This document shows, in pieces, positions 10,354 to 36,500 of a stretch of 64,000 nucleotides of DNA. The DNA comes from Brevibacillus laterosporus DSM 25. Lineage in GTDB: Bacteria > Bacillota > Bacilli > Brevibacillales > Brevibacillaceae. The position numbers and the translations under genes are program-made. The DNA lies in assembly GCF_002706795.1 (NCBI RefSeq), contig NZ_CP017705.1, positions 1,010,001 to 1,074,000 on the forward strand, written 5' to 3'. The notes below the pieces were generated by a model. That model saw only the letters and a list, made by a program, of their open reading frames with translations, was not told where the DNA came from and made no database searches. Within the stretch, counting starts at the first letter, position 1. Each line of letters begins with the position of its first letter.

Positions 10354-11865
10354 TCAATTCGGTTCTAAAACATACGAATATGGTACATGTAAAAAGGAAA
10401 GTAAACGGTTTTGCCCCTCTTCTTCCTGAACACCTTGAAGAATTTCACTGATCTCCTTTTGGACAGATTCATAGCGAAGCTGGTGTTGTTGCTCTGATTC
10501 CACAGTGGCTTCATGCTCTACTATCCAACTTGCTACTTTCTTTGCCACAGGTAATAGAGCCTGCTGAATGCTTGTATACATCGTTGATAATTCGTGATTA
10601 TTTTGCTCTAGAAGTTGATCAGAGCGCTGTTCTAAATATCCACGAATCTCCGCCAGACGTGACAATAATTCTCTCCATTTCCATAGTTGCTTATGCTGTT
10701 TACGTTGTTTCGAATCTAGAAGTGGGAACGGCTCACTGGATAGGAGAGATTGCACGTCTGGCCATGGTTTTTTCTGAAGTGATTCCTCCAGCTTTTTCAT
10801 GCAATACGCATGAGCAGGTAGCAATTCTACCGTTTCTCTGAAGACAGGTAACGTATTTCTTGCATAGCTTTTAACTCCCCAAGCACTATGAGCTTGTAGA
10901 GCTTTCACAAAGGAAAAACAATGTGTATGTAATGATTTCAGTTCCCATTCCTCTAATTCATGATTAGACAAAATCGTTTGTTTAACGATATTATCTGGAA
11001 TGTGAAAATTCCCTTCCCCCAATTGCATTCCTCTCTTCACATAGGTCCGCAATGTTTCTCCTGTCAAAGAAGAATCCTCACTTCCTTGATAAAGCTGAAT
11101 CCGGAAGGCAGCAAAATCTTCAAAGCCCTGCATATTTCCGTAACCATCATCAATAATATGCAAGTCTGTCTGCACTTCCATCAGCTCACTTAGTACCTGT
11201 TCTTCTAATGCATAGATACATCCCTCGATGTGAGTCCAATAGCTTCTACATTCCGCCTCTGATCCCAGTACCCTTTGATACACATCGTGAAACAAGAGAA
11301 TATGAGCAATCTCATGAAAATAATTTTGGAATGGAAATTTGAGATTTTCCCCACGGAGGTAGGAGCCTGCATTCTGATAAATTTTCCCGTGTTCAGGTCG
11401 GAACAAGGTAGGTAATGTGGAATCTATGTCTAAAAAGAGCTCGATGCCAGCGTTATAGCTATTTGCCCATACGGCTAGGTAGGTTGGACTTAATAAAAGT
11501 GCAATAGAATGGTTGGTAATTTGTACAGGCAGATTAAAATGTAGACCATTCGTTTCTTCCTGCAAAGATAACCATGTCATTCCCACTGCCAAAGCCTGAT
11601 ACAGCGCAAATTCACCTTGTGCAACCGAATGTCGTGCATACAGCTGTAGCTGTCTGAGGCAATTCGTGACACCTTCTACTTCATATGTATATTGTTGTTG
11701 AAACTGTTCAAGGCCCTCTACAAAATCTTCGTGCTCGATCGTTAAAAATACATTAATTCCATCTACCCAGAGGTCCGAGCCCATTTTAGACTCCAACCAT
11801 TGATCGGTATGATGAGCTAGCTGACGAAGTTCTTTATAACGCTGTATCATGTGAAAGGAATTCAT
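10354..11865 (-). CDS. Zinc metalloprotease-like protein (HEIAH + EVQTD), peptide-associated
   Basis: I do not recognise this 503-residue protein. Residues 184-188 are HEIAH in the setting NYFHEIAHILLFH, a zinc-metalloprotease HExxH helix. Forty-one residues later E230-V-Q-T-D234 fits the ExxxD third-ligand helix of gluzincin and M48-like enzymes. The C-terminal 150 residues are Gln/Glu-rich and mostly helical, perhaps coiled coil. No signal peptide or membrane segment is evident, so it is probably cytoplasmic. Only a weak AGGGATAGG precedes the ATG. It lies 93 bp downstream of two tiny paralogous peptide genes, behind a strong terminator, so it is probably made by read-through. Processing or modifying those peptides is an attractive inference, not shown. 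Confidence 0.7.
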   Translation of the reverse strand: MNSFHMIQRYKELRQLAHHTDQWLESKMGSDLWVDGINVFLTIEHEDFVEGLEQFQQQYTYEVEGVTNCLRQLQLYARHSVAQGEFALYQALAVGMTWLSLQEETNGLHFNLPVQITNHSIALLLSPTYLAVWANSYNAGIELFLDIDSTLPTLFRPEHGKIYQNAGSYLRGENLKFPFQNYFHEIAHILLFHDVYQRVLGSEAECRSYWTHIEGCIYALEEQVLSELMEVQTDLHIIDDGYGNMQGFEDFAAFRIQLYQGSEDSSLTGETLRTYVKRGMQLGEGNFHIPDNIVKQTILSNHELEEWELKSLHTHCFSFVKALQAHSAWGVKSYARNTLPVFRETVELLPAHAYCMKKLEESLQKKPWPDVQSLLSSEPFPLLDSKQRKQHKQLWKWRELLSRLAEIRGYLEQRSDQLLEQNNHELSTMYTSIQQALLPVAKKVASWIVEHEATVESEQQHQLRYESVQKEISEILQGVQEEEGQNRLLSFLHVPYSYVLEPN

Positions 11866-11910
11866 TTTATCCTATCCCTTCTTCGATTGATAGAAATGCC
11901 TTCTTCCGAT

Positions 11911-11949
11911 AAGAAAACAAGAGCACGCGTCATAAAATACGTGCTCTTG
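11911..11949 (-). terminator. Strong terminator/attenuator between peptide genes and protease gene
   Basis: On the minus strand CAAGAGCACG (11949-11940) and CGTGCTCTTG (11927-11918) form a perfect 10-bp stem, followed by TTTTCTT. It would let the peptides be made in excess over the downstream 503-residue protein. Confidence 0.85.
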
Positions 11950-11958
11950 CCTTTAACA

Positions 11959-12054
11959 TTAATATTTACAAACCATGGTGATAATTGGATGATGCAACAC
12001 TTTAAGTTCAGCTACTTTTTCATTGTTGACCGTAATTTTTACAACTTTTTTCAC
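11959..12054 (-). CDS. 31-residue peptide B (paralogue of peptide A)
   Basis: A short gene starting at GTG with AAGGAGA nine bases upstream. The product begins MKKVVKITVNNEK, has VAELKVLHH in the middle and ends TMVCKY. It aligns with peptide A with one gap: the same KKVVK start, shared Asn, Val, Lys and Leu positions, a (I/V)(I/V) pair, and a Val-Cys near the end. It has a single Cys, no signal peptide and net positive charge. The ribosome binding site, the paralogue and the downstream terminator support a real gene. A modified-peptide (RiPP) precursor, pheromone or small regulatory protein are all possible. Confidence 0.7.
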   Translation of the reverse strand: MKKVVKITVNNEKVAELKVLHHPIITMVCKY

Positions 12055-12111
12055 AGTAAAAACTCTCCTTTACGTTGAAAGATAATTTTACTTTTTAAAA
12101 AAAGTACTACA

Positions 12112-12207
12112 TTACAAACAAACATCAACAACTACACGCCACATTAAATCTTTCATTTGCTTTACATTTTTGTTATCCGAGAGTTCTACTTTTACTACTT
12201 TTTTCAT
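12112..12207 (-). CDS. 31-residue peptide A (paralogue of peptide B)
   Basis: AAGGAGGGTG precedes two adjacent ATGs at 12210 and 12207. I choose 12207 because it gives a 31-residue product that aligns from its first residue with peptide B. The peptide starts MKKVVKVELSDNK, continues VKQMKDLMW and ends VVVDVCL. The KKVVK start and the Val-Cys near the C-terminus are shared with peptide B. It has one Cys and one Trp and no signal peptide. It is first of the peptide-peptide-protease unit and lies behind a good promoter. The family is unknown to me. Confidence 0.7.
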   Translation of the reverse strand: MKKVVKVELSDNKNVKQMKDLMWRVVVDVCL

Positions 12208-12265
12208 CATTCACCCTCCTTATAACTAGACTTACATGATAGGAGTAAAATCTATCAATATCGTT

Positions 12266-12294
12266 ATTGTGACAGATAGTTCTGAAAATTTCAA
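12266..12294 (-). promoter_or_regulatory. Candidate promoter of the peptide locus
   Basis: On the minus strand TTGAAA (12294-12289), a 17-bp spacer and CACAAT (12271-12266). Further upstream the octamer ATTAGCTA occurs twice in direct orientation, 28 bp apart (12397-12390 and 12369-12362), possibly a regulator site. Confidence 0.5.
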
Positions 12295-12428
12295 TAATAT
12301 TACAAAAATTTTATATTATACTAATTTTAGTGGGTAAAATACACTATTTAAGATACATCTTTAGCTAATTTCTTGGGTATTTTCACATATAGCTAATGAA
12401 TTAGAACTGAAATATGAGACAATGGAAA

Positions 12429-35316: not shown

Positions 35317-35625
35317 ATGGGGGAAATTAGAAAAACATATTCAAAGGATTTTAAGTTAAAAGCCGTACGGCTTTATTTGAGCGGTGAACAAGGGTACAAA
35401 ACACTTACAAGGGATCTCGGCATTAGTGACCCTTCTATTTTAAGAAGATGGGTTGATCATTATAGAAAGGAAGGTATACAGGGACTAGATGAAAAACGCG
35501 GGAGAACAAAAAATCCTCTTAGAGGAAGACCACGAATAAGGCCAGAGAGTACGGAGGAAGAGATAGTTCGATTACGTGCAGAGAACGAATTCTTAAAAAA
35601 GTGGCTAGGTCTAGAAAAGAGGTGA
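35317..35625 (+). CDS. IS3-family transposase OrfA
   Basis: A 102-residue DNA-binding protein. It has the HTH segment KDFKLKAVRLYLSGEQGYKT with ISDPSILRRWVDHY, and the C-terminal leucine-zipper-like helix EEEIVRLRAENEFLKKWLG that mediates oligomerisation. AGGAGGGG lies before the ATG. A AAAAAG at 35595-35601 is a -1 frameshift heptamer in the correct phase to fuse it to OrfB. Confidence 0.93.
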   Translation: MGEIRKTYSKDFKLKAVRLYLSGEQGYKTLTRDLGISDPSILRRWVDHYRKEGIQGLDEKRGRTKNPLRGRPRIRPESTEEEIVRLRAENEFLKKWLGLEKR

Positions 35626-36500
35626 AACCGAAAGATAAATGCTGTTTTTTCGAGCTTATTAAAGAATTGTCTAAAAAGTATTCTATTACTTTATTGTGTA
35701 AAATTACGAAAGTATCTCGTAGTGGTTTTTACAAGTGGCTTTCTCGTGAGAAACACCCCACCTCAAAACAATTGGTAAATGAAAAATTAAGAGAAATGAT
35801 CATGGAGTGTCATCAAGAGGTCAAAGGTATTTACGGGTATCCCCGAATAAAAGTGTGGTTATTTAGAAGGTACGGGCTAAAAGTCAATCATAAACGTGTG
35901 TATCGCATTATGAAGGAACTTGGGATACAAGCGCTAATCCGTAAAAAACGAAAATTCTTTGGGCGCAAAGAGAAGGTTGTCATCTCCGAAAACAAGCTGA
36001 ATCGAAATTTTTGCGCCTCACGGCCAAATGAGAAATGGGCTACAGATATTACCTACATACTATTTAATGGTCGCCGTCTTTATCTGTCTGTCATATACGA
36101 CATGTATAACAACGAAGTTGTTGCCTACAAAACAAGCAAACGTAATGATTTACGACTCGTAATGGATACCGTAAAATTAGCGATTAAAAAGCGGGATGTA
36201 AGCGGAGTCCTCCTACACAGTGATCAAGGATACCAGTACACCTCAAAGCAGTATAACCAGTTCCTTCAGCAATATAAAATCGTAGCAAGTATGTCTAGAA
36301 AAGGTAACTGTTTAGATAACGCCTGTATTGAGGGGTTCTTTGGGCATTTAAAAACAGAGTGTTTGTACCTTCATTCGTTTCAAACAGATAAAGAAGTGGA
36401 AGAAGCTCTTCACGGTTACATTAATTTCTATAATCAGCAACGGTTTCAATCTCGATTAAAAAACCTGAGTCCGATAGAATACCGAACTCAGGTAGCCTAG
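35601..36500 (+). CDS. IS3-family transposase OrfB (DDE integrase)
   Basis: The catalytic half of the transposase, 299 residues from the first in-frame GTG. It lies in the -1 frame relative to OrfA and is normally made as an OrfAB fusion. An HTH_21 segment (KGIYGYPRIKVWL...VNHKRVYRIM) precedes the rve integrase core. The catalytic residues are visible: Asp in ATDITYI, Asp in LHSDQGYQY and Glu in ACIEGFFGHLK, followed by the usual YINFYNQQR tail. Confidence 0.93.
   Translation: MARSRKEVKPKDKCCFFELIKELSKKYSITLLCKITKVSRSGFYKWLSREKHPTSKQLVNEKLREMIMECHQEVKGIYGYPRIKVWLFRRYGLKVNHKRVYRIMKELGIQALIRKKRKFFGRKEKVVISENKLNRNFCASRPNEKWATDITYILFNGRRLYLSVIYDMYNNEVVAYKTSKRNDLRLVMDTVKLAIKKRDVSGVLLHSDQGYQYTSKQYNQFLQQYKIVASMSRKGNCLDNACIEGFFGHLKTECLYLHSFQTDKEVEEALHGYINFYNQQRFQSRLKNLSPIEYRTQVA

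Follow-up and report, generated by a model that had tools for sequence, protein, structure and literature searches.

A conserved cassette of twin short peptides and an HExxH protein in Brevibacillus laterosporus and related bacteria: a probable minimal RiPP-like precursor/maturase system

Introduction

HExxH enzymes that act on the precursors of ribosomally synthesized and post-translationally modified peptides (RiPPs) have precedent. Two reports describe alpha-ketoglutarate-dependent HExxH (alphaKG-HExxH) enzymes whose hydroxylation targets are Gln, Asp, His, and Pro and which can also cut peptides, either oxidatively or hydrolytically (PMC12636437, PMC13060819). In this study we analysed a cassette in Brevibacillus laterosporus DSM 25 that resembles the loci of this family (TIGR04267/IPR026337; ChlH, PflC/PosC, and PesO) in placing a gene for an HExxH enzyme beside short, predicted ribosomal precursors. 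The cassette lies in a window of 64,000 nucleotides (positions 1010001-1074000 of a 5.4 Mb genome in a single contig, here G000); read along the minus strand, it comprises a possible promoter, peptide A, peptide B, a terminator-like hairpin, and the enzyme gene. A further likeness is that PflC can also hydrolyse peptide in the absence of a leader (PMC12636437). The family differs from the cassette in size, as the eight members that we aligned have 261-424 amino acids compared with about 500 for the cassette enzyme, and in that neither a partner enzyme nor a transporter was seen at the Brevibacillus locus.

Two other kinds of system invite comparison. Gluzincin-type metallopeptidases, such as the thermolysin-like enzymes and BlaR1/M56, carry HExxH followed by a Glu, and the cassette enzyme likewise has Glu candidates after its HExxH motif. 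It differs from the gluzincins in its long helical C-terminus, its lack of a Pfam peptidase match, and the dedicated peptides encoded next to it. In RRNPP quorum sensing (PMC10075063), a propeptide is encoded with an adjacent receptor, and a short precursor with a candidate signal at its C-terminus is common to those systems and to ours. The constant partner of the cassette peptides, however, is a dedicated HExxH protein.

Results and Discussion

The cassette is genuine and conserved and, so far as the searched literature shows, undescribed; the search, outside of which most subscription papers lie, gave no description of it among the matches listed. In an order sample of 39 genomes, all from Brevibacillaceae, the enzyme was present in 12, and a peptide profile produced strong matches in exactly these 12 genomes, two in each (24 matches, E <= 1.4e-10; hypergeometric probability of the overlap 2.6e-10, without phylogenetic correction). 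Since peptides of this kind went into the profile, its E-values flatter these copies, and the weight therefore rests on absence elsewhere and on position; the peptides had first been recognised by reading the flanks of enzyme genes and not through the profile. Four further profile matches in this sample (E 0.08-0.92) were dropped as chance. At all 12 orthologous Brevibacillaceae loci, where the enzymes are 58-89% identical to that of the window, both peptides stand directly upstream. The genes that flank the cassette differ by eye between the two Brevibacillaceae genera represented, and thus it is the cassette that has been kept and not the region.

Wider samples gave the same picture. The enzyme was found in 17 of 398 genomes of the class, namely those 12 and five from the Tumebacillus family, of which seven genomes were examined. 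A wider peptide profile, run over 250 class genomes, yielded 31 strong matches (E <= 1.4e-7) in 12 genomes, every one of them beside the enzyme, while two others (E 0.026 and 0.037) were dropped as chance. Among 398 genomes of the phylum, the window's own was the single one with the enzyme, and there the wider profile returned the window's own pair together with one weak match within a longer frame (E 0.003, G735) that was taken as chance. No relatives of the enzyme were found in the viral contigs or plasmids searched.

The 12 orthologues, three paralogues, and eight Tumebacillus-family loci make up 23 enzyme loci, and at 19 of these the enzyme adjoins peptides with the leader MKKVVKx..V..xK. 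The first-pass annotation had made it a test whether homologous peptides accompany homologous enzymes; this held for every orthologue in Brevibacillaceae and for the seven Tumebacillus-family loci with an intact HExxH motif, and failed for the three paralogues, which have only a decayed peptide remnant. In these paralogues (38-39% identity) the promoter and ribosome binding site survive by eye, and the start and reading frame of the peptide are lost. The gene next to the paralogue in the B. laterosporus genome encodes a serine hydrolase of the beta-lactamase family that carries S-layer domains. Loss of HExxH in relatives, which had been raised as a point against the proposal, was seen in one copy (G138, L013, Tumebacillus family), where HSMAQ replaces the motif and about 28 neighbouring residues are deleted. 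A pattern search revealed no such peptide within 1.5 kb of this copy, in which enzyme and peptide seem to decay together.

Peptides A and B have KKVVK in common, and in both a VC is followed by one or two final residues, as had been observed at the outset. Purifying selection on peptide A is strong: the ratio of nonsynonymous to synonymous polymorphism (pN/pS) is 0.05 within the larger Brevibacillaceae genus, and both genera retain the core WRVVVD(V/L)CL. This constraint, and the presence of both frames at each orthologous locus, take the twin open reading frames (ORFs) beyond chance. For peptide B the ratio in the larger genus is 0.59 (leader 0.43, core 0.76). Each peptide is closer to its counterpart in the other genus than to its neighbour, which suggests that the pair probably predates the split of the two genera and that both products are probably needed. 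In an alignment of 20 precursors, of which three were cut back to their first core, the leader is conserved and the cores vary; peptide A is an exception to this rule, as its core is more conserved than its leader across the two genera.

The C-terminal Cys pointed out in the first-pass annotation is not a defining feature of the peptides. It occurs in 29 of 39 peptides (24/24 in Brevibacillaceae, 4/4 in Tumebacillus flagellatus, and 1/11 in a second genus of the Tumebacillus family), and an idea centred on Cys, either metal chelation or Cys modification, was abandoned as a general rule, since the residue is missing from the other 10 peptides. Matches of the peptides to NCBIfam YukD (E 0.057) and Pfam RHH_3 (E 0.11) fell below the cut-off and were rejected.

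Nearly all Tumebacillus-family peptides have the leader MKKVVKx..V..xK with small changes. T. flagellatus carries three enzyme genes, one with two peptides upstream, one with a single peptide upstream, and one (L022) with a peptide positioned after the enzyme. The order of peptides first, then enzyme, which the first-pass annotation regarded as part of the layout, was thus found at 18 loci and is not obligatory. In the second genus, peptides adjoin the enzyme at all four loci (four, three, three, and one in number), and three of these loci encode a multi-core precursor. The longest, from G178, has 103 residues and six PIGI cores spaced at 14-15 residues, and each core is preceded by [VAT]K-x-x, the same element that closes the leaders of single-core precursors. 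In no one of 100000 shuffles did PIGI appear more than twice. The precursors of G188 and G208 have 70 residues, with cores that are fewer and more varied. In G188 (L068:2701-5072), genes for an ABC exporter and a MauE/DoxX protein are located about 3-6 kb from the module; it is possible that they are export machinery, and they were not seen at the other loci looked at.

Among the 18 peptide-first loci, the best perfect inverted repeat measures 10-12 bp at 16 and 7 bp at the other two, in a count made without a shuffle control, and the T-rich tail is missing from the hairpin at L023 and L070. A standard terminator scan, which accepts loops of 3-8 only, listed no terminator at the hairpin of the window with its 12-nt loop. 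With the hairpin in this place, there is probably more mRNA for the peptides than for the enzyme. The succession of short ORFs, a terminator-like hairpin, and a gene also resembles an attenuator, in which the ORFs would be leader peptides that control the enzyme gene via the hairpin and not products in themselves. We judge this to be very improbable, since the amino acids of peptide A are conserved despite many synonymous changes, the peptide at L022 lies downstream of its enzyme, multi-core versions reach 70-103 residues, and twin ORFs with different cores have been kept across two genera.

The features of the locus are collected in Table 1. The two ORFs of 31 codons with their ribosome binding sites, the hairpin with a 10-bp stem, and the HEIAH protein of 503 residues, all reported in the first-pass annotation, are present on the minus strand. 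The possible promoter matches the consensus weakly, and the number of matches is not above that in shuffled sequence; at the equivalent position, relatives read by eye have TTGAAA...CATAAT or TTGAAA-18-TATAAT.

Table 1. Coordinates of the cassette features (window positions) and of an enzyme paralogue
Feature	Position	Strand	Description
Possible promoter and peptide A ribosome binding site	12300-12215	minus	TTGAAA ... CACAAT at 12294-12266
Peptide A ribosome binding site		minus	GGAGG 5' of start
Peptide A ORF	12207-12112 from second ATG	minus	31 codons and stop; 32 codons from first ATG at 12210
Peptide A sequence		minus	MKKVVKVELSDNKNVKQMKDLMWRVVVDVCL; predicted precursor ORF
Peptide B ribosome binding site		minus	AAAGGAGA 5' of start
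Peptide B ORF	12054-11959	minus	GTG start; 31 codons and stop
Peptide B sequence after start codon		minus	KKVVKITVNNEKVAELKVLHHPIITMVCKY; predicted precursor ORF
Terminator-like hairpin	11949-11918	minus	CAAGAGCACG-(12 nt)-CGTGCTCTTG then TTTTCTTA; perfect 10-bp stem, T-rich tail
HExxH enzyme gene	11865-10354	minus	503 amino acids; H184-E185-I-A-H188; unclassified family
Enzyme paralogue L014/L071	G000:C1:3006456-3007931		HEMAH intact; same type at L015 and L016

By eye, the cassette is flanked by an MgtC-like gene and an N-acetylglucosamine-kinase-like gene. The window had no Rfam match and contained no tRNA. Elsewhere in it, at 35317-36500, two neighbouring ORFs resemble by eye a transposase pair of the IS3 type.

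H184, E185, and H188 are invariant in all 16 aligned enzymes. A gluzincin-like zinc site had been read from HEIAH and EVQTD (230-234); the first element stands, whereas E230 of EVQTD, present in the window protein, is not conserved, and the invariant Glu residues after the motif are E214 and E227 (16/16), both located on helix 203-231 of the predicted model. No credible Pfam family was obtained for any of the 16 enzymes (best E 0.018 and above, none a peptidase) and no credible NCBIfam family for the five examined, and PHROGs and PADLOC gave weak matches only (E 0.006 and 0.009, respectively). The full-length model is of medium confidence (predicted local distance difference test, pLDDT, 79.1; predicted template modelling score, pTM, 0.83), and a core-only model was poor (pLDDT 47.8). 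In a VIA comparison the full-length model had no row at Z >= 8, and most of the rows listed span residues 334-496. BlaR1 (8exp, 8exq) compared with residues 111-243 scored Z 4.9, in a range that is common for unrelated folds. A ChlH structure, 8s5f, exists in the PDB and was not among the matches listed for the model, which does not count against a shared fold.

The enzyme might instead be a divergent alphaKG-dependent HExxH oxygenase, akin to ChlH, PflC, and PesO, that would hydroxylate the cores or cleave them oxidatively, for instance at the Pro of HPI or RPIGI or near the C-terminus. In a Bacillus relative, this family acts on short precursors (PMC13060819). The hhalign program pairs the two HExxH helices with Prob 20% and 16% (E 0.0011 and 0.0016, single comparisons) over only 25-39 columns around the motif, without an unrelated HExxH family as control. 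The stretch before the motif is also alike by eye, G-x-I-Y-Q-N against G-x-x-W-x-N-P. Nevertheless, the TIGR04267 model left the window protein unmatched up to E 1 and four relatives unmatched up to E 0.1, with no match in the B. laterosporus genome, although it does detect true members elsewhere in genomes G018 and G178. Moreover, alphaKG-HExxH enzymes use a third His as a ligand. This residue is invariant in the eight aligned members, located 38 residues past HExxH in the first of them and mostly in an RP-x-x-x-x-H-like segment, and it is absent from the 16 cassette enzymes, in which E214 and E227 occupy that stretch. Core A and several other cores contain no Pro. With both the family model and the third His lacking, we consider a divergent oxygenase unlikely; the enzyme may still work like the alphaKG-HExxH family, and it is equally possible that it is an HExxH peptidase in which Glu serves as a ligand.

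In our assessment the locus is quite likely a minimal RiPP-like precursor/maturase cassette. The first-pass annotation had pointed to the layout of a modified-peptide (RiPP) or pheromone locus, and the pairing of peptides with enzyme supports this well. In the mechanism that we propose, the N-terminal segment shared by the two precursors, MKKVVKx..V..[VML]K, would act as the recognition element that recruits the enzyme, while the C-terminal cores of about 8-12 residues differ (WRVVVDVCL in A and HPIITMVCKY in B). The hairpin, as a partly effective terminator, would probably hold the enzyme below the level of the peptides. The HExxH protein, a putative metalloenzyme that is probably cytosolic, would bind the leader and act on the core just past [VAML]K-x-x. 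It has roughly an even chance of cutting after this element, thereby releasing the core. With appreciably lower probability it would oxidise core residues by analogy with the alphaKG-HExxH RiPP enzymes and leave trimming to housekeeping proteases, and there is a small chance that it does something else. Cleavage is slightly favoured because multi-core precursors would need cuts between their cores and no other protease accompanies the module consistently. The mature peptides would probably serve as signals or antagonists outside the cell, with the exporter encoded elsewhere.

Several observations count against a precursor/maturase cassette. No product, modification, or cleavage was observed. 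By eye, no transporter, radical SAM gene, regulator, or second enzyme is adjacent to the Brevibacillus cassette, as the first-pass annotation had already remarked for the first two. The enzyme has no recognisable leader-binding domain, given that it has no Pfam match and that its first 140 residues are all-helical in the model, and Foldseek found no PDB match to the model at E <= 0.001. The three Brevibacillaceae paralogues keep HExxH beside a mere peptide remnant, and thus the enzyme can survive where no intact peptide lies next to it. Across the samples searched, it occurs in just two bacterial families. Finally, the profiles were built from the peptides that they later found, and strongly divergent peptides elsewhere could escape them.

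The product of such a cassette could be put to use as a pheromone, a reading compatible with precursor and maturase. Exported peptides would give rise to signals of 8-12 residues that are re-imported by an oligopeptide permease (Opp) and sensed by an RNPP-family receptor, with the HExxH protein as processing protease or maturase. RNPP_C (PF18768) is rare in the 17 enzyme-bearing genomes, with eight matches in four genomes, of which five in three genomes exceed the cut-off. The only RNPP_C gene of G178 (L067:4606-5532) is about 3 kb away from the enzyme gene, and two Opp-like permease genes that follow the enzyme stand between them. T. flagellatus has two RNPP_C genes, one of which precedes the first peptide of L023 by about 0.5 kb, and this regulator and the one in G178 are 44% identical. 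Opp-type permease genes are also found near the enzyme in G208 (Pfam) and G188 (by eye). On the other hand, the 12 Brevibacillaceae genomes have no RNPP_C gene at E <= 0.001, nor does G188, and the two weak RNPP_C genes of G208 are both distant from the module. The two other close homologues (G138:C4 and G168:C4) have no such peptide within 1.5 kb, and distant homologues with helix-turn-helix and tetratricopeptide repeat domains are common in the Tumebacillus family (21-40 per genome in five genomes). Only one genus showed Opp genes, and the proximity to RNPP genes was noticed after the fact. A simple hydropathy scan, made without a signal predictor, found no Sec-like or other long hydrophobic stretch for export in peptides A or B. 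Taken over all lineages, we regard the pheromone system as possible but doubtful; within the Tumebacillus family, the gene neighbourhoods suggest a signalling use of the peptides.

Conclusions

We tentatively propose, at somewhat less than even probability, that these loci represent a new class of ribosomal peptide with its own HExxH maturase family, in which a leader grammar of MKKVVK..V..xK and [VAT]K-x-x would direct one metalloenzyme to single, twin, or six-fold cores, and in which the product of some lineages would be an intercellular signal for a linked RNPP receptor. If the precursor/maturase reading is true, this would be a very small RiPP-like system made of peptides and one enzyme, and no Pfam or NCBIfam model fitted its enzyme family. 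The retention of two neighbouring cores in both genera suggests that the product consists of two peptides. With a recognition element before every core, substrate recognition would become testable by varying the number and identity of the cores. The cassette would also offer a means to test whether HExxH maturases beyond the known alphaKG family work by cutting peptides or by oxidising them.

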